From contig WGMF01000040.1 of the NCBI GenBank assembly GCA_016125215.1, positions 1-64,000 on the forward strand: a stretch of DNA of 64,000 bases, read 5' to 3'. Below the pieces are notes generated by a model. It was not told the DNA's origin. It searched no databases and saw only the letters and a list, made by a program, of their open reading frames with translations. The stretch comes from Phycisphaera sp. Its GTDB lineage: Bacteria; Planctomycetota; Phycisphaerae; Phycisphaerales; Phycisphaeraceae. The translations under genes were made by a program, and so were the position numbers. Numbering within the stretch: the first letter of the stretch is position 1; every line of letters begins with the position of its first letter. This document shows, in pieces, positions 1,422 through 17,720 of the stretch.

Positions 1422-2744
1422 ATGGAAGTCAAGCTCGTAAACATTGATGAAATCAGGCCCTATGAATCCAACCCGCGTCTGAACGACCAGGCGGTGGACG
1501 CTGTGGCCGCGTCGCTACGGGAGTTCGGTTTCCGCCAGCCCATCGTGATCGATCCCGACGGCGTGATCATCGTCGGCCACACGCGTTGGAAGGCGGCGAA
1601 GAAGCTGGGCCTGGCCAAGGTGCCGGTCCACAAGGCGACCGGGCTGACGCCTGATCAGATCAAGGCGTACCGGATCGCCGACAACCAGACCGCCACGATC
1701 GCGGACTGGAACATGGAGTTGCTGCCGATCGAGATCGGCGGACTCCAGGAGGCGGGTTATGACCTGGCGCTGCTGGGCTTCGACGAAGAGACGTTGGCGC
1801 ACCTGCTCGACGGTGACGCGAAGGACGGCCTGACCGACCCCGACGACGTGCCGGCGCCACCCGACGAGGCGACCACCCAGCCCGGCGACCTGTGGGTGTT
1901 GGGTGACCACCGCCTGCTGTGTGGTGACAGCTCACTGCCTGCGGATGTGGATCGGCTGCTCGACGGTCAGTTGATTGACCTCGTCAACACCGACCCGCCT
2001 TACAACGTGAAGGTCGAGCCCCGGTCGAACAACGCGATCGCGGCAGGCAATTCGTCCTTCCCCGAAGCGCACCGGACGCACCACCAATCCTTCGACGTGG
2101 CGCGGCAGGGCGAGAAGAAGAAGACCACCAACAAGATGCGGGCCAAGGACCGGCCCCTAGCTAACGACTTCGTGACCGACGAGGCGTTCGACGCGCTGCT
2201 CGACGCCTGGTTCGGCAACATGGCCCGCGTGCTCCAGCCGGGGCGCGGGTTTTACATCTGGGGCGGGTACGCCAACCTGGGCAACTACCCGCCGTACCTC
2301 AAGAAGCACGAGTTGTATTTCAGCCAAGGCGTCGTGTGGGACAAGCAGCACCCGGTCCTGACCCGCAAGGACTACATGGGCGCGTTCGAGATCTGCTTCT
2401 ACGGCTGGCGTGAGGGGGCCGCCCACCGCTACTACGGCCCGAACAACGCCACCGACCTGTGGCACATGAAGAAGGTCAACCCGCAGTCGATGGTCCACCT
2501 GACCGAGAAGCCCGTCGAGCTGGCGGTCCGCGCGATCCAATACTCATCCCTGCCGGGGGAGAACGTGCTCGACTTGTTCGGCGGGTCGGGCTCGACGCTC
2601 ATCGCGTGCGAGCAGACCAACCGCCGTGCGTACCTGATGGAACTCGACCCGCCGTATTGCGATGTGATCGTGCAGCGGTGGGAGAAGTTCACGGGGCGGC
2701 AGGCGGAAAGGACCCAAAACGCCCTCACCGCAGGTGTGAATTAG
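1422..2744 (+). CDS. ParB-N domain plus DNA methyltransferase (beta class)
   Basis: This 440-residue protein combines two domains. Residues 1-100 are a ParB/Srx nuclease-like domain (IRPYESNPRLND, VIIVGHTRWKAAKKLGL). Residues 155-430 are an adenine- or cytosine-N4 DNA methyltransferase. The catalytic motif TDPPYNV lies at 190-196 and precedes the S-adenosylmethionine motif DLFGGSGST near 385, so the order is that of the beta class. The fusion is common in prophages, plasmids and integrative elements, where it methylates element DNA; no partner restriction enzyme is visible. The start follows GGAG with good spacing. Its TAG overlaps the 3' end of the convergent doc gene by 3-4 bp. Target specificity cannot be read from sequence. 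Confidence 0.9.
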   Translation: MEVKLVNIDEIRPYESNPRLNDQAVDAVAASLREFGFRQPIVIDPDGVIIVGHTRWKAAKKLGLAKVPVHKATGLTPDQIKAYRIADNQTATIADWNMELLPIEIGGLQEAGYDLALLGFDEETLAHLLDGDAKDGLTDPDDVPAPPDEATTQPGDLWVLGDHRLLCGDSSLPADVDRLLDGQLIDLVNTDPPYNVKVEPRSNNAIAAGNSSFPEAHRTHHQSFDVARQGEKKKTTNKMRAKDRPLANDFVTDEAFDALLDAWFGNMARVLQPGRGFYIWGGYANLGNYPPYLKKHELYFSQGVVWDKQHPVLTRKDYMGAFEICFYGWREGAAHRYYGPNNATDLWHMKKVNPQSMVHLTEKPVELAVRAIQYSSLPGENVLDLFGGSGSTLIACEQTNRRAYLMELDPPYCDVIVQRWEKFTGRQAERTQNALTAGVN

Positions 2745-3127
2745 TGGGCATGCGAACGGAAGAATTCTGCGGCGGCGGCTTTGTCGGCTTTGCCAGAGGC
2801 AACCGCAATGGTGATGTCGTAAAGCGCGCCGGTTGGAGCGGCAATCGTCACGCCGTTGAGGTCCAGAAACATCAAAGCCGCGACGGCCGCGGCACGCTTG
2901 TTGCCATCGACGAAGGGGTGGTTCTGGGTGATGTGGAACAGGTACGCCGCCGCCATCGAGAACAAGTCTTCGTGCAGGTAGGCCCCACCGAATTGAGAGC
3001 GGGGTTGGGCGACCGCCGAATCCAGCAGGCCCAAGTCACGCACGCCGTGGCCGCCGCCGTACCGATCGATTTGATCGGCGTGGGCAGCGAGCACGTCTTC
3101 GATAGTCAGAAAGTCCGGAGTCACCAC
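2741..3127 (-). CDS. doc: Doc/Fic-type toxin of a toxin-antitoxin pair
   Basis: The protein has 128 residues, the normal size for Doc (death on curing). The Fic core motif HPFVDGNKR is at residues 70-78, followed by the expected helix. Doc enzymes inactivate elongation factor Tu by phosphorylation (established for P1 Doc); I infer the same reaction here from the motif. The ATG at 3125-3127 directly follows the antitoxin stop, giving an antitoxin-first operon. Production should be limited by the palindrome upstream of the antitoxin gene. The 3' end overlaps the methyltransferase gene on the other strand. The protein looks complete and likely acts as a stabiliser of the mobile region. Confidence 0.9.
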   Translation of the reverse strand: MVTPDFLTIEDVLAAHADQIDRYGGGHGVRDLGLLDSAVAQPRSQFGGAYLHEDLFSMAAAYLFHITQNHPFVDGNKRAAAVAALMFLDLNGVTIAAPTGALYDITIAVASGKADKAAAAEFFRSHAH

Positions 3128-3919: not shown

Positions 3920-4492
3920 TCACGCTCCCTTCCGCAGTTGGAACAAACCGCGCTCGACCTTGGTGAAGCGGGCGTCCTTACCCTTCTGTCCGATCTCACG
4001 GATGATCGCGGCGTAGAGCGTGGCGTGCGGCGTCTTCCCAACGCCGGGTTTCCACAAGCCCTTGGCGGCGACCGCCTCGACCATCTGTTTGGCGTTGAGC
4101 CCGTCGGAGGCGTCGGCCAGGACCTGCGCGGCGGCGTTGATCAGGCTCAGCTTCTTGGGCTTGTCCTGCTTTACCGACTTCTTCTTGCCCTTGCCTTCGT
4201 CACGCGGCCGGGCGTTCTCCTGGTCGGCCTTATCCCGGGGGGGCTGGGCGTGGAGCGCTTCGCGCTGCTCCTTGGTGACCGGCTTCTTCTCGGGCTGGTC
4301 CTTGGGTGCCGTTCGCTCAGGCGCCGGCCCGCGCAGGCGCTGGGCGCTCTTGATGCGGACCTTCTTGTTGGTGGCCAGGTTGGTCGCGTCCCAACCACCA
4401 TGCGGGTTCTCCACATCGATGCGGACGGGGACGACCTTGTCGGTCACCTTCGCCATGTACGTGCCGCCGATTCTGATCTCGTTCTTCTTCAT
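3920..4492 (-). CDS. HARE-HTH domain protein
   Basis: The protein has 190 residues. The N-terminal 60 residues form a small beta-rich segment (IRIGGTYMAKVTDKVVPVRI). A lysine/glutamate-rich linker follows (about 65-118). The C-terminal 70 residues (LSLINAAAQVLADASDGLNA to FTKVERGLFQLRKG) match the HARE-HTH winged-helix domain found in ASXL proteins, RNA polymerase delta and restriction-linked proteins (family knowledge). It may recognise modified or specific DNA, which fits a mobile element that carries its own methyltransferase. It sits 4 bp upstream of the next gene, indicating co-transcription. A small AGGAGACACACC leader precedes the ATG. Confidence 0.75.
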   Translation of the reverse strand: MKKNEIRIGGTYMAKVTDKVVPVRIDVENPHGGWDATNLATNKKVRIKSAQRLRGPAPERTAPKDQPEKKPVTKEQREALHAQPPRDKADQENARPRDEGKGKKKSVKQDKPKKLSLINAAAQVLADASDGLNAKQMVEAVAAKGLWKPGVGKTPHATLYAAIIREIGQKGKDARFTKVERGLFQLRKGA

Positions 4493-9868: not shown

Positions 9869-10402
9869 ATGCGGAACGTGATGAGCATGGCGGACTATCG
9901 GAAGCTGTTTCCCCACCAGGTGTCGTACCCCAAGCGAACGTCGCAGGCGGCGACGGAACTGGTGACGCGGGGGCTGAAGGCCAGCGTGGCGACGCTGGAT
10001 TATCTGGTGAACAAGGGGGAAGTGCGGATGCCGCGCGGCGACAAGCGGACGCGCCACTGGTATCCGTGGCACATCATGGAGGCGGCGCGATACCTGGAGA
10101 AACACGAGGCGTTCACGCCGGAGGGCTGGCGGTGCGTGATGGAAGATGTCGATCTGGCGCAGGACATCCGTGCGTTCCGCGCCGCGTGTGCGCAGGCCCC
10201 GCACCTGCCGCCGGACCGGGGTTACTTTGTTCGGACGGTGACGCCGAGCGGGCCGTGCTATCGCAATGGTGAGTATGACGTGCCGGGCATGGCCGCCAGG
10301 CGCGTGTATGCCACGGTCAGCTATCGCCCCATCAGCGTCGAACAACTGGCCGAGTGGGGCGAAATGCTCGATGCCGCCAAGAGTCAGGGGGTGGCCGCTT
10401 GA
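9869..10402 (+). CDS. Putative DNA-binding protein of capsid-bearing element
   Basis: The start ATG follows AAAGGAG by nine bases; 177 residues. Residues 30-70 (VTRGLKASVATLDYLVNKGE, then VRMPRGDKRTRHWYPWHI) look like a winged-helix or excisionase-type domain: a recognition helix followed by a basic wing. The remainder is helical with no known motif. It is the first gene of a forward-strand series that leads into the capsid fusion gene, and its TGA overlaps that gene's TTG start. I infer an element regulator or a head-morphogenesis helper; there is no sequence proof for either. Confidence 0.6.
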   Translation: MRNVMSMADYRKLFPHQVSYPKRTSQAATELVTRGLKASVATLDYLVNKGEVRMPRGDKRTRHWYPWHIMEAARYLEKHEAFTPEGWRCVMEDVDLAQDIRAFRAACAQAPHLPPDRGYFVRTVTPSGPCYRNGEYDVPGMAARRVYATVSYRPISVEQLAEWGEMLDAAKSQGVAA

Positions 10403-12282
10403 CCCCCGCCCCCGAAAGTAAAGAAGCCATCGCCACCTTCGGCACGATGCCTGAAACCCTCGATCTGACGGCCTCCGTAAATGTCAACAAGCTTCCGGGG
10501 GTGAATATCGTGGCGTACACCGGTGGATTGATGACGGTGCCGCAGTGGGGGTTGATCGTCATCGACCTGGCGGGTTTGGAACTGGGGCAGGTGCCGATTC
10601 TGGCCGATCACGAATCACGGTTGGCGGGGATCGTCGGGCATGGTGACGCCCAAGTGCGGGATCACCGTTTGATCGTCGCCGGGAGCATCTCGGCGACGGG
10701 CGAAGCGGCGCAGGAGATCGTCGCGGCGGCGCGCAACGGATTCCCGTGGCAGGCGTCGGTGGGTGTGCAGGTCATGGAGGCCGAGCCCGTGCGGGCCGGT
10801 CAGGTCATCGAAGTCAACGGTAGGCGGATCACGGCCCCAACTTCCGGGGGCCCCGGAAGTGAAGGGTTGATGCTCGTCAAAAGGGGCCGCCTGCGGGAAG
10901 TCAGTATCACCTCGCTGGGTTGCGATGGGGACACGGTGGTCTCCATCGCGGCCTCGCAAAGAAAAGGACAACACATGGACGTTGAAACAGTGCAAGTGCA
11001 GGATCAGGTTCAGGCAACCGATGCGGCGGAGACACAGCGGGTCGCCGCCATCGCGGAGATTTGCGGCCAGCGGTATCCGCAGATTCAGGCGCGGGCCGTG
11101 GCCGAAGGGTGGGATTCCACACGCACCGAGTTGGAGGTGCTGCGTGCCAGTCGCCCGAAGATCAGTTCGGTCTGGCGTAGCGCACCCACATCGCCTGCCG
11201 GGAACGTATTGGAAGCGGCGTTGCTGACGCACATGGGGCGCGTCGGCCTAGGTGAACGGGTACTGGGGCCGGTGGCGATGGAACAGGCCCATCGCATGGG
11301 CGTCACCAGCATGATCGACCTGTGTCGGGCGGCGCTACAAATGGATGGGCGCGACGTGCCGACGGGGCGGATGGAACTGGTGAAAGCGGCACTCAGCACG
11401 ATGTCGTTGCCGACGGCGCTGGGTAATGTGGCGAATAAGGTGCTGTTGGACAATTACAACGAGACGCCCGCCTCGTGGCGTGCGTTCTGCGCCGTCCGTA
11501 GCGCCGGCGACTTCAAAACCAACAACGCCATTCGGCCCACGTTCACCGGTTCACTCGAACAGGTGGCCCCCGGCGGTGAACTCAAACACGGCGGCATCAG
11601 CGAAGCGGTCACCACGTTCCAGATCGATACCTTCGGCAAGATGCTGAGCATCGACCGGCGCGACATCGTCAACGACGACCTGGGCGTATTCGAGGATGCA
11701 GCGGCGAGTTTCGGGCGCATGGCGATGCGGAAGGTCAGTGATCTGGTGTACCGGGTGCTGCTGGCCAACGGCGGCAATTTCTTTTCGGCAGCCCATGGCA
11801 ACCTGCTGGACGGTGTCGATTCGGCGCTGACGCTGGATGCGTTGTCGCAGGCGATCGCGCTGATGCGGACGCAGCGCGACGACGAGGGTAACGATCTGGA
11901 TTTGCGGCCGGCGACATTGCTGGTGACGCCGGAGTTGGAGCCGACGGCCCGGATGCTCATCGAAAGCGAGTACGTTCAGCGGGCCGAAGACGTGCCGACC
12001 GGCAACAGTCTGCGGCGGGCGGTGAATCTGGAAGTCGAACCGCGATTGAGCAACACGACCAAGTTCGGCGCGTCGGCCAGCACCAAGCACTGGTATCTGT
12101 TCACACAGCCGTCGGCGGTGCCGATGATCGTGGCGTTCCTCAACGGCAAGCAAACGCCGACGGTGGAATTCTTTGGCCTTGATCAGGACGTGAACAAGCT
12201 GGCGGTGGCGTGGCGCGTGTACCACGACTTCGGCAGTGCGTTGTGCGATCCCCGGGCTGCGGTGCGCAGCGCCGGTCAATAA
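10399..12282 (+). CDS. Prohead protease-major capsid protein fusion
   Basis: I place the start at TTG 10399, overlapping the previous stop (TTGA), with an AGGGGGT box upstream. The 627-residue product has an N-terminal prohead-protease-like domain of about 200 residues (VPILADHESRLAGIVGH with the likely catalytic His, FPWQASVGV with the likely Ser, and the closing LREVSITSLGCDGDT). A linker with Q-rich scaffold-like sequence follows. A capsid domain runs from about 270 to the end (DTFGKMLSIDRRDIVNDDLG, RPATLLVTPELEPTARML), like Mu gpT/HK97-type major capsid proteins. Self-processing fusions are known in phages. No portal, terminase or tail gene accompanies it here. An exact 21-bp palindrome sits at the end of the protease part. 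Confidence 0.85.
   Translation: MTPAPESKEAIATFGTMPETLDLTASVNVNKLPGVNIVAYTGGLMTVPQWGLIVIDLAGLELGQVPILADHESRLAGIVGHGDAQVRDHRLIVAGSISATGEAAQEIVAAARNGFPWQASVGVQVMEAEPVRAGQVIEVNGRRITAPTSGGPGSEGLMLVKRGRLREVSITSLGCDGDTVVSIAASQRKGQHMDVETVQVQDQVQATDAAETQRVAAIAEICGQRYPQIQARAVAEGWDSTRTELEVLRASRPKISSVWRSAPTSPAGNVLEAALLTHMGRVGLGERVLGPVAMEQAHRMGVTSMIDLCRAALQMDGRDVPTGRMELVKAALSTMSLPTALGNVANKVLLDNYNETPASWRAFCAVRSAGDFKTNNAIRPTFTGSLEQVAPGGELKHGGISEAVTTFQIDTFGKMLSIDRRDIVNDDLGVFEDAAASFGRMAMRKVSDLVYRVLLANGGNFFSAAHGNLLDGVDSALTLDALSQAIALMRTQRDDEGNDLDLRPATLLVTPELEPTARMLIESEYVQRAEDVPTGNSLRRAVNLEVEPRLSNTTKFGASASTKHWYLFTQPSAVPMIVAFLNGKQTPTVEFFGLDQDVNKLAVAWRVYHDFGSALCDPRAAVRSAGQ
10840..10860. repeat. Perfect CTTCCGGGG palindrome inside the capsid gene
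   Basis: Arms ACTTCCGGGG and CCCCGGAAGT around a single G. It encodes TSGGPGSEG in the linker between protease residues. It is built from the CCCCGGAAGT motif that recurs, often in tandem, in other genes of this window. Confidence 0.75.
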
Positions 12283-12352
12283 CGTGGCACTGTGTGGGCG
12301 CGGGTGGCCGGGCCGGTGTTCGTCTTTCGCACCGGTCCGGCATCCGCTTTCG

Positions 12353-12374
12353 ATACTGGAAACATTTCCAGTAT
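12353..12374. promoter_or_regulatory. 22-bp perfect palindrome, possible operator
   Basis: Arms ATACTGGAAA and TTTCCAGTAT are separated by CA. It lies 70 bp downstream of the capsid gene and 41 bp before the next start codon. Its half-site TTCCAGTA also occurs in the repeats at 9441 and 9628, suggesting a shared DNA-binding protein. It lacks a T-run, so it is a poor terminator. Confidence 0.55.
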
Positions 12375-12414
12375 GCCTTCGGCATATTTCACGGTGAATT
12401 TACTCGAGGTGAAT

Positions 12415-12642
12415 ATGGTTGCGATGGATCGACCGTGTGCCACGGACGGCACGACGGACCGGGTGGGCAAGTACAAATTCGAGACGGCGTTCGCCGAGGG
12501 CGGCGATGGGGATGTGGACCAACTTCGATCACACCGACGCCGGGCGCTGACCCGATGGCTGGTGTCGGAGTGGCGGCGTGAACACGGGCGCGGTCGCCAC
12601 ACTCGGCCGACGACGTTCCGTCAGATCGCGGAGAGGAATTGA
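12415..12642 (+). CDS. Small basic protein before the helicase gene
   Basis: ATG 12415 is chosen because GAGGTG lies just upstream; the frame is open earlier but without a ribosome site. The 75-residue product (MVAMDRPCATDGTTDRVGKY...) is rich in arginine in its second half (LRSHRRRALTRWLVSEWRRE), consistent with nucleic-acid binding. No family is recognised. Its TGA is two bases before the helicase ATG, so the two are co-translated. Confidence 0.55.
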   Translation: MVAMDRPCATDGTTDRVGKYKFETAFAEGGDGDVDQLRSHRRRALTRWLVSEWRREHGRGRHTRPTTFRQIAERN

Positions 12643-12644
12643 AT

Positions 12645-14021
12645 ATGGTGGCCAAACAGACAACACCGATCACGCCGGGGCACTATGAAGCGAAGATCGT
12701 CAGGTCGCAGATGGTCGCCACGGCGGACGGCAATCGCCTCGATCTGAACTTCGAGATCATCGGCGGCGAGCACGATGGCGGCACCATCGTCAAGCAACTG
12801 CACTTGCACAGCCGCAATGCGAATACGCAGTGGCGGGACCGTCAGGACCTATGCCATATCTGTCGGGCGGTCGCCGTGCTGACGCCGCACGACAGCAGCG
12901 AACTACATAACATCCCGATGGTGATCCAAGTTGGGGTGGACAAACGGCGCAACACGATTCTGGCGTATGCGTCCGCACGCAGACAAAGTGCTGCTGAACC
13001 ACCCAAATCCCGACGTCTGCAACTGACCCGCGCCGATCAGATCGAGATTCGCCCGCCGGACTGGCTGTTGCGTGGCATGATCGAGCGCGACACATTCGCC
13101 CTGATCTTCGGTGATCCGGGTTGCGGCAAATCGTTCCTCGCCATCGACTGGGCGTGCAGGATCGCCACAGGGACGCCGTGGCGCGGTCAGGCGGTGAAGG
13201 GCGGCCCCGTCGTCTACGTCGCGGGAGAGGGCCAAAACGGGTTCGGCAGGCGCATTCGTGCGTGGAGCGAGCACCACGGTATCACGCTTGCCGAGGTGCC
13301 GCTGTACCTGGCCCCGGCGGTGGCGATCCCCGATCCGACCGACCTTGTCGCCCTGATCACCGCCATCGACACCGGCGTGGCGAACGTCGGGCAACCGACG
13401 CTGATCGTGCTGGACACGTTGGCGCGCTGCTATGGCGGCGGCGATGAAAGCTCGACGCAGGACATGAGCCGGTTCGTCGCGGCCTGTGATGCGATCCGCA
13501 ATCGATACAACTGCACGATCCTTGTCGTGCATCACAGCGGTCACGCCGACAAAACTCGCGCCCGGGGCGCAATGGCCCTGAAAGCGGCGCTCGACGCCGA
13601 ATACCGATTGGCCGGCGACAACGGCCTCAGGTTGACCTCCACCAAGATGAAAGACGCCGAGACCCCGCCGCCGTTGGCGATGGAACTGGTGACCGTCGAG
13701 TTGCCGGGGCTGGTGGACGACTACGGCAACCCCGTCACGTCGGCGGCCATCGACGTGGTTGATGCCGACACCGGCGCACTCGAATCGCAGGCGAAGGCGG
13801 CGCTGTCGGGCAAGCGCGGCAAGTGGCAGCGACTGGGTTTGAAGATCGCCAAGCGTTTGATCGCCGACAACGACGGCGGCGAGGTGGCCATCGAATCGTG
13901 GCGGGACGAATGTCTCCGAGCAGGCATGGTGCGGCAGAACCAGCATCGCGTGATGCAGGCGCTGTTGGAGCGCGGCGAAATCATCGTCGCCGGTGAATCA
14001 ATGAGCCTTCCAACCGCCTGA
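12645..14021 (+). CDS. DUF669 domain fused to RepA-like hexameric helicase
   Basis: ATG 12645 follows GAGG by eight bases; 458 residues. Residues 1-110 match DUF669 (ITPGHYEAKIVRSQMVATAD, LNFEIIGGEHDGG), a phage family placed next to single-strand binding and replication genes. Residues 125-370 are a RecA-fold ATPase of the RepA/AAA_25 type, with Walker A GDPGCGKSF, GGPVVYVAGEGQNG, Walker B PTLIVLDTLARCYGG and the sensor VVHHSGH. The C-terminal 80 residues are helical, possibly a winged helix. Such helicases start replication of plasmids and phage satellites. The array of CGTGAC repeats begins two bases after the stop codon and is the likely origin it acts on. Confidence 0.85.
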   Translation: MVAKQTTPITPGHYEAKIVRSQMVATADGNRLDLNFEIIGGEHDGGTIVKQLHLHSRNANTQWRDRQDLCHICRAVAVLTPHDSSELHNIPMVIQVGVDKRRNTILAYASARRQSAAEPPKSRRLQLTRADQIEIRPPDWLLRGMIERDTFALIFGDPGCGKSFLAIDWACRIATGTPWRGQAVKGGPVVYVAGEGQNGFGRRIRAWSEHHGITLAEVPLYLAPAVAIPDPTDLVALITAIDTGVANVGQPTLIVLDTLARCYGGGDESSTQDMSRFVAACDAIRNRYNCTILVVHHSGHADKTRARGAMALKAALDAEYRLAGDNGLRLTSTKMKDAETPPPLAMELVTVELPGLVDDYGNPVTSAAIDVVDADTGALESQAKAALSGKRGKWQRLGLKIAKRLIADNDGGEVAIESWRDECLRAGMVRQNQHRVMQALLERGEIIVAGESMSLPTA

Positions 14022-14022
14022 T

Positions 14023-14260
14023 CGTCACACCGTCACACGTCACGTTTGCCCCCCTTAAGGGGGGCAAAACGTGACGGTGTAAACGTGACGGTGCCCAAAA
14101 TGAAAATGTGACAACGTGACAAACAAAACGTGACGCCGCAACACAAGTCAAAACAACACTTTACGGAAAGCGTCACGTTTGGAGCTTGATGAAAACGTGA
14201 CAACGTGACGGTTGGAAACGTGACGAGCGTCACATTTTGGTTTTTCGGGCAAACGTGACG
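14023..14260. repeat. CGTGAC iteron array and palindrome, candidate replication origin
   Basis: Within 240 bp I count about a dozen copies of CGTGAC in both orientations, most extended as AACGTGAC(G). Forward copies include those near 14068, 14082, 14113, 14127, 14194, 14202, 14217 and 14252. Reverse copies (GTCACG-type) are near 14023, 14031, 14038, 14171 and 14228. The perfect palindrome GCCCCCCTTAAGGGGGGC is at 14048-14065, embedded in a longer imperfect inverted repeat. The array begins directly after a RepA-like helicase gene, as in iteron origins of plasmids and satellites. No ordinary gene fits here. Confidence 0.7.
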
Positions 14261-14394
14261 CTTGGGCGGTTAGGTACTCCGCCGCGACGGCCTTTTCATG
14301 ACGGCGGCGGGAACCGTCGAGGACCAAAGCAAAGTTTGTTGGCAAGGGCGCACATTCTGCCGTAACGCCCCCCCCGGAAGTAATTGAGGCCACG

Positions 14395-14586
14395 ATGTTG
14401 ACGCATCAGATGTTGTTGAAGATCGCCTGGCATCAGCATGGCGACCATCGCGGTTGCTACCGCCGCAGGTGCGCCGCGTGCGGCACCGTGTTCTATGTGG
14501 GTCGCCCCGAGGCCCGGTATTGCCGTTCCGCCTGCCGCCAACGCGCCTATCGCAACCGGCGAAGAATCCGGGCACATTCCACTTGA
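14395..14586 (+). CDS. Small zinc-ribbon protein
   Basis: A 63-residue protein whose start ATG follows GAGG. The second half contains CAACGTVFYVGRPEARYCRS and then ACRQRAYRNRRR. The arrangement C-x2-C-x12-C-x3-C is a treble-clef or zinc-ribbon pattern with a basic tail. Proteins of this type occur in actinobacterial and planctomycete mobile elements as short DNA-binding factors (family-level impression). It sits between the candidate origin and the serine recombinase gene, so a role in replication or excision control is possible. Confidence 0.6.
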   Translation: MLTHQMLLKIAWHQHGDHRGCYRRRCAACGTVFYVGRPEARYCRSACRQRAYRNRRRIRAHST

Positions 14587-14676
14587 TGTTCACTCCACGT
14601 TCAGCCCTCATGTCGTAGATGCGGCACCGCATCGTGTGGTGCCTGTCCGACTCATTCCGCGAAAGGAGATTCCACC

Positions 14677-16701
14677 TTGGTTGCCAACCGAAAAGCCATC
14701 GCCGCCGTCGGGTACGCCCGGCGCTCCACCGACATGCAGGAGCGTTCCATCCCTGACCAGCAGGCCTACGTCGAACGCTGGGCGCAGGACAACGGCTATC
14801 GCATCCTCCGCTGGTACGTCGACGACGCCATCAGCGGCACCAGCGTCAAGGATCGTGACCAGTTTGAAGCCATGATCGCCGATGCCGAAGGTTCCGGGGT
14901 TTCCGGGGGTGGGAGAGATTTCGACGCCGTGCTCTGCTACGACCTGTCCCGCTTCAGTCGCGGCGGCACCAACGAGACCGGCTACTACATCCACCGCCTG
15001 CACATGGCGGGCGTCGAGTCCATCTTCCCCGCCGAGTCCATTCCCGAAGGCGATGAAGGCGAACTGCTTCAGGGCGTCAAGTCGTGGCAGGCCCGCCAGT
15101 ACAGCGTGAAATTGTCGCGCGACACGCTGCGCGGCATGGTGTCCAGCTTCATGCAGGGCCGCAACACGCCCGGCGGTTGCAACCCCTACGGCTATGACCG
15201 CCAACACGTCACCGCCGACGGCACGGTGCTGCGAACCATCCGCCAACTGCCCGACGGACGCAGGCAGGAGTTCGACGCTCAAGGCAACCCGACGCGCATC
15301 CTCGGCGAGGGCGAACGCGCCCGCAAGGACAAAAGCATCTATGCCCGCCTGGTGCCGTCGTCGCCCGAGCGCGTCGCCGTGGTCCGGCGCATCTTCGATC
15401 AATACATCAACGGCCACGGCATCACCACCATCGCCTACGAACTGAACCAAGAACAGGTGCCCGCCGTGTTCAGCAGGCATTGGACCGTCTCCACCATCAA
15501 GGGCATTCTCTCCAACCCCGTCTATCGCGGCGCGATCGTCTGGAACCAGTCCAGCACCGGCAAGATTCACGGCGTCGACGGCACCGGCCACACCAAACGC
15601 AAACGTGGGCGCGATCGTGAAAAGAACCAACGCACCGACTGGTTCATCATCGAAGACGCCCACGAACCGTTGGTGTCGCGCGAAATATTCGAGCAGGCGC
15701 AGCGGCTTCGTAAACAACGGGCCGGGGATCGCGCTGGCAAGCGAAGTGGCGGCGCGGCCCGCGTGGAAAATCGTTCGCTGCTGTCGGGCTTGTTCACCTG
15801 TCGCCACTGCGGCAACGGCTACCACCATGTCGCCGACTCCAATAGGTACAAGGGCCGCAAGAAACGCTATCGCTATTATCGCTGCACCGGCTTCACCACC
15901 GGCGGCACCGGCGTATGCCCCTGTTCAAGCGTGCCCGCCGACGGACTCGAATCGCTGGTGCTGGATCGCATCAAACGCATCCTGTTGGGCGAACACCAGA
16001 ACACCGACGCCGCCATTGACGACTTCGTCGCCGCCGTGCTGGGCGGCACCGGCCCGGTGGTGGACACCGCCGAAATGACCAAAGCGGTCGCCGCCGTCAC
16101 CCGGCGCATCGAAACCACCGTCGCCATGCTCGCCGATCCGGAGTTCGACGGCCTCGACGAACTTCGCGCCACGTTGGCCAAGCTCAAAACCCGCCGCGAC
16201 GATCTTCAGGCCGACCTCGAACGCATGGAACGCACCGGCCCGGGCATTGCGAACGAAACCGCTCTGCGTCAGTGGGCCGGTTCACGCATCGCCCTGCTCG
16301 ACGGCCCCATCGCCACCTACCAGCCCTCGCCGGAACTGCGGCAGTTGGTGCAGAACTTCGTGGATCGCATCGAAATCGACCCCAACGCCAAACGTGGTGC
16401 GATCCACCTGCCCAAAGACATCGCCACCGCCTACCAACACCTTTTTGTGGGGAACCCAGCGCACGGGAACGCGTCGGCCGTCGGGTCGCGTGATCTGGCT
16501 GATGAAGGGCCGTGGCTTGTTCATGGTGTTCTCCTTGGTTTTGGGTGGTTGGGGCTTGGCGTTCATCGCGTGCTCGTTGGTGATGCGTATGAACACATGA
16601 GGGCAAGATGTCGCCCCGACATCAAGGCCAATCTGGCCCATGTGGGGAACTTTTTGATGCACACATGTGGCGTCCCCGTGGCGAGTTACGGACATGCCTG
16701 A
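14677..16701 (+). CDS. Large serine recombinase (integrase)
   Basis: The start is TTG 14677, eight bases after AAAGGAG. The resolvase domain (1-150) begins AVGYARRSTD with catalytic Ser17, and continues with YDLSRFSRGG. A recombinase domain (200-300) and a zinc-ribbon domain (LFTCRHCGNGYHH, near 370-420, with later cysteines) follow. A coiled coil then runs to about residue 590, ending in the typical RIEIDPNAKRGAIHLP. These enzymes integrate and excise phages and mobile elements at short att sites. A GSGVSGGGR insertion near residue 70 is built from the TTCCGGGG repeat. The last ~80 residues (from VGNPAHGN) do not look like integrase and may be read-through into flanking DNA across an att junction. 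Confidence 0.9.
   Translation: MVANRKAIAAVGYARRSTDMQERSIPDQQAYVERWAQDNGYRILRWYVDDAISGTSVKDRDQFEAMIADAEGSGVSGGGRDFDAVLCYDLSRFSRGGTNETGYYIHRLHMAGVESIFPAESIPEGDEGELLQGVKSWQARQYSVKLSRDTLRGMVSSFMQGRNTPGGCNPYGYDRQHVTADGTVLRTIRQLPDGRRQEFDAQGNPTRILGEGERARKDKSIYARLVPSSPERVAVVRRIFDQYINGHGITTIAYELNQEQVPAVFSRHWTVSTIKGILSNPVYRGAIVWNQSSTGKIHGVDGTGHTKRKRGRDREKNQRTDWFIIEDAHEPLVSREIFEQAQRLRKQRAGDRAGKRSGGAARVENRSLLSGLFTCRHCGNGYHHVADSNRYKGRKKRYRYYRCTGFTTGGTGVCPCSSVPADGLESLVLDRIKRILLGEHQNTDAAIDDFVAAVLGGTGPVVDTAEMTKAVAAVTRRIETTVAMLADPEFDGLDELRATLAKLKTRRDDLQADLERMERTGPGIANETALRQWAGSRIALLDGPIATYQPSPELRQLVQNFVDRIEIDPNAKRGAIHLPKDIATAYQHLFVGNPAHGNASAVGSRDLADEGPWLVHGVLLGFGWLGLGVHRVLVGDAYEHMRARCRPDIKANLAHVGNFLMHTCGVPVASYGHA
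16440..16524 (-). pseudogene. Start of an unknown gene cut at the recombinase end
   Basis: On the minus strand AAGGAGAACACC precedes ATG 16524, an excellent ribosome site. The reading frame begins MNKPRPFISQITRPDGRRVP followed by VRWVPHKK, which looks like a natural protein start. It then runs into the antisense of the recombinase gene, where it becomes meaningless. I infer that an intact gene once continued to the left and was split when the serine-recombinase element inserted; the missing part may be near 5480-5640. Confidence 0.5.
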
Positions 16702-16978
16702 AAAAACACCGAAAATTCCTCCCCCGGAAGTGCCCCCGGAAGTGCCCCCGGAAGATGAAAACACCGGCCCGGGTAGCGCCGCCGCCCACGCGCCCGTGGC
16801 CGACCCGGCAGCGCTGAGCGTCGCGCATCTGGCGCGGCTGTTGGCGTTACCGGAAGACAAGGTGCTTAAGCACATTGCCGCGGGCGCACCTTCCGCGGCC
16901 GACGGGACCATCAACCTGGTGCGCTACGTGGCGTGGCTTAACCGACGCCTGAAGGAGAACGATGGCCCGGAGGTTTGA
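16694..16978 (+). CDS. Proline/glutamate-repeat protein with HTH-like end
   Basis: A 94-residue protein. The N-terminus holds PPEVPPEVPPEDE, encoded by tandem CCCCCGGAAGT units, a motif dispersed through the window. Residues 40-94 (LSVAHLARLLALPEDKVLKH, VRYVAWLNRRLKEN) resemble a small helix-turn-helix domain. The next gene's ATG lies inside its last codons, so the four genes from here to 17720 form one overlapping set. Function is unknown. Confidence 0.55.
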   Translation: MPEKTPKIPPPEVPPEVPPEDENTGPGSAAAHAPVADPAALSVAHLARLLALPEDKVLKHIAAGAPSAADGTINLVRYVAWLNRRLKENDGPEV

Positions 16979-17225: not shown

Positions 17226-17388
17226 AAGGGCCTTGACCGACGATGTGCTGGAGCGCATCCGCGTTCACTATGCCGGTCTGATCCTGCTCGTGGCGGACGA
17301 GGAATCGCCAGTACCACTCAAATTGGAGCTACCCAAAGAATCAGAATCACGGCGACATTACTCTGCCGGGGAGGGTGGGTCGACGTGA
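17143..17388 (+). CDS. TubC N-terminal docking domain-like protein
   Basis: I choose ATG 17143, with GGTGG upstream; the frame begins inside the preceding gene. The 81-residue product has LLNELRAAGVELRVSLELDG followed by LTDDVLERIRVHYAGLILLV. That is the pattern of the TubC_N docking domain: a strand pair, then L-T-x-D-x-L-x-R-I-x-x-x-x-A-x-[IL]-x-x-L. Stand-alone copies are common in phage and plasmid accessory gene sets, usually next to primase or integrase genes; their role is unclear. The GTG of the next gene overlaps the stop. Confidence 0.6.
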   Translation: MSWIIRLLNELRAAGVELRVSLELDGSERALTDDVLERIRVHYAGLILLVADEESPVPLKLELPKESESRRHYSAGEGGST

Positions 17389-17720
17389 CGCGTTCGACCG
17401 CCGCCAACCTCCAGCTCCACGACGACCATGACGATGGCGTGGTCGACGAGCTTGGGCATGAGCCCGGCACGTCGCCCATGGTCGGCATCGCGCCCATCGA
17501 GCCGTTGGCAGTGGATGTCACGCAGGCGGCGGCGCTGATCGGCGTCAGTCGCAGTGCGTTCTACAAACTCGTCAGCGCGGGGCGGATCGGCCCTCGGGGC
17601 GTGCAGTTAGGCAAGCATGTCCGCTACCCGCTGGCGGAACTGCGCGAATGGGCAGCAGCGGGGATGCCACCGAGGCATGAATGGGCCGGACGCAGGGATC
17701 GGCTGGAAGACCCCGAATAG
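17385..17720 (+). CDS. Helix-turn-helix excisionase-like protein
   Basis: GTG 17385 overlaps the previous stop (GTGA). In the 111-residue product, residues 44-95 (DVTQAAALIGVSRSAFYKLV, GPRGVQLGKHVRYPLAELRE) match the HTH_17/AlpA-type winged helix of excisionases and directionality factors. It lies 99 bp upstream of the tyrosine integrase gene, the normal place for an excisionase. It would bend DNA at the att site and may also regulate the integrase. Confidence 0.75.
   Translation: MTRSTAANLQLHDDHDDGVVDELGHEPGTSPMVGIAPIEPLAVDVTQAAALIGVSRSAFYKLVSAGRIGPRGVQLGKHVRYPLAELREWAAAGMPPRHEWAGRRDRLEDPE

Follow-up and report, generated by a model that had tools for sequence, protein, structure and literature searches.

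Described initiators and origins of comparable design

In phage lambda, the initiator O reads type-specific iterons at ori and is not itself a helicase; the alpha protein of P4 combines a primase, an SF3 helicase, and an origin binder. In staphylococcal pathogenicity islands (SaPIs), several short iterons follow immediately 3' of rep, as stated in a source that cites Ubeda 2007 on this point (PMC7581432). The C-terminal domain of the SCCmec helicase Cch2, taken on its own, binds a putative origin that lies immediately 3' of the gene, and self-loading has been proposed (PMC7581432). Loading of RepA in RSF1010 is preceded by the melting of oriV, which is carried out by a different protein, RepC (PMC8965321). 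Finally, GP46 of Lactococcus phage F13 is an AAA_25, RepA-like 5'-3' helicase that has been shown to unwind DNA (PMC8965321).

The locus described here lies in a 64,000-nucleotide stretch of DNA from Phycisphaera sp., referred to in its entirety as the window. It consists of a helicase/initiator gene (12639..14021, + strand), encoding DUF669, an AAA_25 domain of the RSF1010 RepA-like type, and a C-terminal winged helix, followed by an array of short repeats. As in SaPI Rep/ori, an initiator helicase with a C-terminal origin-recognition domain, here a predicted one, has iterons directly 3' of its gene; unlike SaPI Rep, whose core is D5/Primase_C-term or DUF927-related, the window protein has an AAA_25 core of the RSF1010 RepA type. 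Of the traits of the SaPI/Cch type, the window locus has multiple short iterons immediately behind the initiator gene and, by prediction and covariation only, a C-terminal dsDNA-binding domain specifying the iteron. The window helicase lacks a D5/Primase_C-term or DUF927 core (Pfam; the nearest fold is RSF1010 RepA) and so would be SaPI Rep-like in its working but stands outside those families. With Cch2 it shares a putative origin just 3' of the helicase's own gene, but it belongs to another helicase family, and Cch2 has three AAGTG iterons, compared with ~12 here, and works with CCPol-MP. Helicase and origin binding would be united as in P4 alpha, and the P4 alpha-type criterion of a fused primase is not met by the window protein (Pfam). 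RSF1010 RepA has the same helicase core fold and is loaded at a plasmid-specific origin; in contrast, the winged helix is fused to the helicase here, and no separate initiator came up among the genes scanned. F13 GP46 is likewise a phage helicase of the same P-loop family, but the passages of the source consulted mention neither an iteron array nor an origin-reading domain for GP46 (PMC8965321).

An AAA_25 helicase with a predicted C-terminal winged helix

Pfam assigns to the window helicase an AAA_25 core (E 2.6e-45; residues 123-304, 13005..13550, + strand) and an N-terminal DUF669 (E 4.6e-8), and nothing beyond these two, a primase domain being absent. The best Foldseek matches are RSF1010 RepA structures (1olo, 1nlf, and 1g8y), and a profile search agrees on RepA (1g8y, E 5e-8). 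With a RecA-like core whose nearest structure is RepA, the protein is of the RSF1010 RepA type (AAA_25), and its hexameric state is inferred. It also matches phrog_2850 (E 1.4e-60), the function of which is unknown.

The C-terminal domain carries no Pfam name and is predicted by AF2 and by a separate domain model to be a winged-helix (wHTH) DNA-binding domain (13818..14018, + strand). AF2 pLDDT is 82-92 over A1 residues 281-347 (the C-terminal 67 residues), and the separate model reaches a core pLDDT of 92-98 with the order H-E-H-H-E-E, which is that of a winged helix; the AF2 helicase core is of low confidence (mean pLDDT ~60). The third helix of the modeled wHTH, RQNQHRVMQALLE (modeled helix 319-331), is the predicted recognition helix and, together with the preceding residue, V, is encoded by 13929..13970 (+ strand). 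Structural neighbors of the wHTH were generic winged helices only, none of them at E<=0.001. Pfam detects no Rep_3 or RepA_N initiator domain in the helicase or the scanned neighbors, and no separate iteron-binding initiator was found among the window neighbors scanned with Pfam and PHROGs, which does not exclude a highly diverged one.

A repeat array begins at the helicase stop codon

The array, a putative replication origin (14024..14260), begins at the helicase stop codon (TGA, 14019-14021) and harbors, around a perfect palindrome, 10 copies of AACGTGAC in 221 bp and four TGTGAC variants besides. CGTGAC occurs eight times on the + strand (14070, 14084, 14115, 14129, 14196, 14204, 14219, and 14254) and twice on the - strand (14039 and 14172); the variants lie at 14024 (-), 14032 (-), 14107 (+), and 14229 (-), for a total of 14 GTGAC. 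An earlier sequence-only reading had described about a dozen CGTGAC copies on both strands, most preceded by AA, packed at a density far above chance immediately after a RepA-like helicase gene, with a perfect GCCCCCC/GGGGGGC palindrome near the left end. The use of both strands, the position behind the gene, the RepA assignment (Foldseek, profile), and the palindrome are all confirmed, the last extending to 24 bp; AA precedes every copy rather than most, and the number comes to exactly 10. As to density, no other 6-mer or 8-mer cluster in the entire window is as dense as the array, and the claim stands for AACGTGAC (Poisson P(>=10 in 221 bp) ~6e-28); CGTGAC itself is common in this GC-rich window (0.94 per kb outside the array; 70 copies in the whole window versus 59.5 in shuffles). 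A count over the rest of the genome, which that reading had proposed for CGTGAC, gave 158 copies of AACGTGAC outside the window's array in a genome of 4.04 Mb, compared with 10 in the 221 bp of the array; the other 63.7 kb of the window contain two.

Three inverted words form a left group (14024..14046, - strand), separated from the direct words by the 24-bp perfect palindrome TTTGCCCCCCTTAAGGGGGGCAAA (14045..14068), within which GCCCCCCTTAAGGGGGGC (14048-14065) occurs only once in the genome. The palindrome and its flanking inverted words give a strong predicted hairpin (z -7.1), and an inverted repeat with a CTTAAG/CTATAG-type center is found again in many relatives, with different arm sequences. 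An intrinsic terminator at the palindrome was ruled out, the T-run being missing, and there are no Rfam families in 12-18 kb.

The direct words include a first triplet with steps of 8 and 14 bp (14100..14134, + strand), a second with steps of 8 and 15 bp (14189..14224, + strand), the first 21 bp of which are 95% identical to 14100-14120, and a last word at 14252..14259 (+ strand). The spacing of the first triplet is near-identical, with other words, in two relatives (L040 and L046) and is also found in L039 and L049. Between the triplets lies a word-poor spacer (14135..14193) with a single inverted word (14172-14179), a candidate unwinding region on weak evidence: the GC minimum of the array area is at 14101-14200, and over 44 loci the largest word-free gap has a median of 50 bp and a mean GC 0.12 below that of its own locus. 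An AT-rich unwinding element is only weakly supported, and the AT-rich spacer is a weak feature in the window's clade.

Arrays recur beside related helicases and use other words

An array is found at the same place for helicase orthologues from other Planctomycetota, from bins labeled Acidobacteria and Chloroflexota, and from phage contigs; nearly all close orthologues and most of the distant phage relatives examined have one. The 6-mer cluster after the helicase stop exceeds every other 400-bp window available for the same locus in 47 of 59 near-nonredundant loci, and in a wider set the cluster at the helicase 3'-end does so for 70 of 86 unique proteins. The layout is conserved, with inverted words, a palindrome-like inverted repeat (most loci), and then two word groups, which in the relatives have steps of ~8 and 13-15 bp and lie some 55-70 bp apart. 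The word itself differs from that of the window in most relatives, and ~20 word classes are found in 57 loci. AACGTGAC is the word of the window, L036, L039, and L049; AATGTGAC that of L035; ATTGGAAT that of L034, L006, L037, and L041-L043; ACTGGAAT that of L040 and L046; ATTGGACA that of L038; AAGTGGACT that of L044; and ATGAGAC that of L052. CGGGACA, CAGGACA, GGTACAC, and others are further words among the relatives. Array-bearing isolate phages include Rhizobium 16-3 and RHph_X2_25 (both GCGTGACA), Idiomarinaceae 1N2-2 (GGTACA), Alteromonas PB15 (GGTTCA), and Roseobacter CRP-406 (GCTGGA), in whose gene tables no replication origin is annotated. The non-coding stretch from the array to the Zn-ribbon ORF, TAGGTACT...GTTTGTT...GCCGTAACGC (14260-14380), is also conserved across word classes.

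These comparisons, which the sequence-only reading had named as a check, show a shared layout with differing words and lend support to its iteron/origin interpretation, there being a RepA-type helicase upstream and arrays beside the orthologues; replication remains an inference. Its expectation of an array beside orthologous helicases is fulfilled in most cases as regards the array, but the word CGTGAC is mostly replaced, and its proposal that absence of the array beside orthologues would be a refutation leads astray once CGTGAC itself is taken to be the array. A chance or low-complexity repeat without function, for which one could cite the abundance of CGTGAC alone in the window, is refuted by the density of AACGTGAC and by the arrays found in this position across dozens of loci, and we regard its probability as negligible.

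A cluster of at least seven at the gene end is absent in 21 of 86 loci; in some array-less loci a cluster lies upstream or 0.7-2 kb downstream, and in others none was found. L061, L063, L110, and L486 belong to the former: words are densely clustered 0.7-2 kb past the helicase gene instead of at its end, and inserted genes may have moved the origin away. No array was found at the homologues of mycobacteriophages Rich and Hughesyang, nor at those of SETP3 and Tlacuache. Among 392 genomes drawn from across the phylum there were no more than three close homologues, one of them that of the window itself, so the helicase family is patchy. A scan of viral contigs with the exact double word AACGTGACAACGTGAC returned 31 matches, mostly isolated doubles, and most had no array or recognizable helicase; the word alone is therefore a poor handle for finding such loci.

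The word follows the winged helix rather than the helicase core

To compare the two parts of the protein, we used partial correlations of word similarity with wHTH similarity controlled for the helicase core, and the reverse; words were automatic k-mer calls, and the statistics rest on pairwise identities, with no tree. Within the window's clade (n=16), the partial r of the word is 0.82 with the wHTH (p 0.0005), as against 0.10 with the core (p 0.19); over 57 loci, the values are 0.38 (p 0.001) and -0.09, respectively. The nearest relative by wHTH has the same word in 34 of 46 loci and the nearest by core in 28 of 46, the wHTH being favored in all six discordant loci. The recognition helix tracks the word beyond the remaining wHTH (difference 0.234; shuffles sd 0.046, max 0.169), and its columns V, R, Q, and N hold four of the top five word-tracking scores of all protein columns. 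These best-tracking residues at the start of the helix read V-R-Q-N, R-Q-S-T, P-R-S-T, or G-K-S-T, and in the window's clade ..GAC words occur with R/K at the second variable helix position and ..GAA words with Q/P, a pattern that rests on few classes and is not a tested code. No DNA-binding protein had been put forward in the sequence-only reading; judging by the covariation, the putative reader of the array is the wHTH at the C terminus of the helicase itself, direct binding being inferred.

Another DNA-binding protein of the element could instead bind the array, for example as a centromere. Candidates lie nearby, namely an HTH_17 protein (17385-17720) and the Zn-ribbon ORF (14395-14583), or a partition protein could be involved; parS-like arrays are likewise short repeats, and in some mycobacteriophages a parS array lies just downstream of repA (PMC7157519). 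The word, however, covaries with the helicase wHTH, best of all with the recognition helix, the neighbors vary among array-bearing relatives while array and wHTH remain together, and the flank 3' of the array is common to different word classes. We judge such a binder to be improbable and retain the helicase wHTH as the likely reader.

Block replacement and in-place word switches

Because the wHTH adjoins the array, co-transfer could mimic recognition, and the correlation could arise from physical linkage only, with recombination moving the gene end and array together in the absence of any recognition. Adjacency speaks for this, as do block exchanges in three cases. In one genome that contains both L039 and L043, the cores of the two elements are 93% identical, identity breaks off sharply at the wHTH, and the words are different (word similarity 0.02), which by comparison of the two loci is a module replacement. 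The array of L040 reads ACTGGAAT and has a fossil AACGTGAC at its right edge as the counterpart of the window's last word, and L046 has ATGTGAC at the position of that last word with AACGTGAC just after. These old-type GTGAC words precede the shared flank and, as judged from the alignments, are the fossil of a replacement whose right breakpoint lies inside the array.

Two further pairs switched their word in place. Between L064 and L084, 12 of 12 sites differ at word position 5, as against 0 of 72 for the remaining positions, with site positions kept and spacers 63% identical; between the isolate phages 1N2-2 and PB15, 12 of 12 sites have changed at word position 4, with spacers 54% identical. 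In both pairs the remaining word positions are nearly or wholly unchanged. The same base changed in 12 of 12 words while the spacers drift cannot be accounted for by linkage alone and is what recognition predicts, and the recognition-helix residues track the word above the rest of the same domain. Linkage with no recognition is, in our estimate, highly improbable; the in-place switches and fossils weaken it, yet few pairs are involved, and linkage could still contribute in part.

A putative origin and the upstream helicase as its probable reader

We consider it probable that an integrative phage-like element has its replication origin in the array and that the wHTH of the upstream helicase reads it, with binding and origin activity inferred. 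Direct observation covers the array itself, where it lies and how it is built, the arrays with other words in relatives, the way the word covaries with the wHTH, the module swap, and the word switches in place. Several helicase subunits would bind the words, which are arranged as two triplets (8 + 13-15 bp steps) and inverted words around the palindrome; this binding would concentrate and assemble the helicase hexamer at the origin, where the hexamer would melt the word-poor spacer and act as its own loader. In the absence of binding or replication data, it is an inference that the helicase binds the words directly, that a hexamer is loaded, that the DNA melts there, and that the array acts as an origin. 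A single protein would be both initiator and helicase, encoded beside its own origin, a RepA-type motor having gained its own origin reader. Since reader and sites form one compact block, the block could be replaced by recombination, or the word could shift base by base, and either would place new origin specificities on the same motor. In PB15, cumulative GC skew turns ~2.5 kb from the array, at the point of transcription divergence, so it neither supports nor excludes an origin there.

The wHTH could also bind the array for control (autorepression, copy-number handcuffing, or transcription termination) and not for firing. In plasmid iterons, origin and control roles are often combined, and the array here lies behind the gene, with a strong hairpin and a single weak terminator-like site within it. 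On the other hand, no sigma-70-like promoter is found at 13900-14700 and there is no T-run after the palindrome, a dozen sites in two clusters exceed the needs of an operator, and a 3'-end array with a helicase core resembles the SaPI and SCC origins. A purely regulatory array is thus unlikely, though not negligible, and an origin remains the preferred reading.

We also lean, with more reserve, toward the view that the very widespread phage AAA_25 helicase family comprises origin-reading initiators, in which the wHTH and dozen-copy array form an exchangeable specificity cassette with many dialects that change by block exchange and by concerted single-base change. The literature yielded the SaPI/SCC and RSF1010 precedents but no description of arrays behind AAA_25 helicases, in a search limited to open-access sources in which absence is no proof. 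If this view is correct, the pairing would be a readable protein-DNA code, and phage origins would be predictable from sequence alone, in a setting where the origins of most environmental phages are unknown. Origin and DNA-reading residues could then be located in a family annotated as "primase/helicase" or of unknown function (phrog_2850), with a bearing on replicon compatibility among prophages and satellites. The natural dialects already offer the data from which a wHTH recognition code could be worked out and allow one to ask how a dozen sites change together, which is open for iteron replicons; PB15, 1N2-2, and 16-3 are usable for this.

The surrounding element

Recurrent neighbors of the helicase are a Mu-gpT-like capsid/protease gene and a gene for a large serine recombinase. 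In the same element of the window these are the capsid/protease gene at 10354..12282 (+ strand; Phage_capsid_4, Mu gpT-like; phrog_4523) and the recombinase gene at 14677..16701 (+ strand; Pfam, PHROGs). The recurrent cassette, seen in the window (9869-16701) and in L034, L035, L037, L041, and L050, has the order small or sigma-like ORF, capsid/protease, helicase, array, often a Zn-ribbon-like ORF, and large serine recombinase. No match to a GpA terminase or lambda-type portal was found in the window's genome, and in L034, which lies on the complete chromosome CP050848.1, neither is near the cassette, a terminase of this kind being no closer than ~475 kb; this absence and distance suggest a capsid-bearing satellite, and the cassette is possibly a satellite carrying its own capsid. 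The L050 contig, however, bears a terminase, a portal, and a second recombinase, so a prophage context is also possible. There, it is as if the cassette were inside or beside a tailed prophage. No direct repeats of at least 14 bp flanking the element were found in the stretches tried.

The L050 contig, a 36-kb phage contig (L500/L501), has two serine recombinases, two capsid/protease-like genes, a terminase, and a portal, and also a D5/NrS-1-like primase-helicase. Two window genes have counterparts on it: a ParB_N + N6/N4 methylase fusion (1422-2744; 70% identical) and a HARE-HTH protein (3920-4492; 57% identical). The window further encodes a Fic/Doc-family protein, a possible Doc toxin (2741-3127, - strand), and a small ORF in which a tandem 12-bp repeat, CCCCCGGAAGTG (16721-16754), encodes PPEV repeats.
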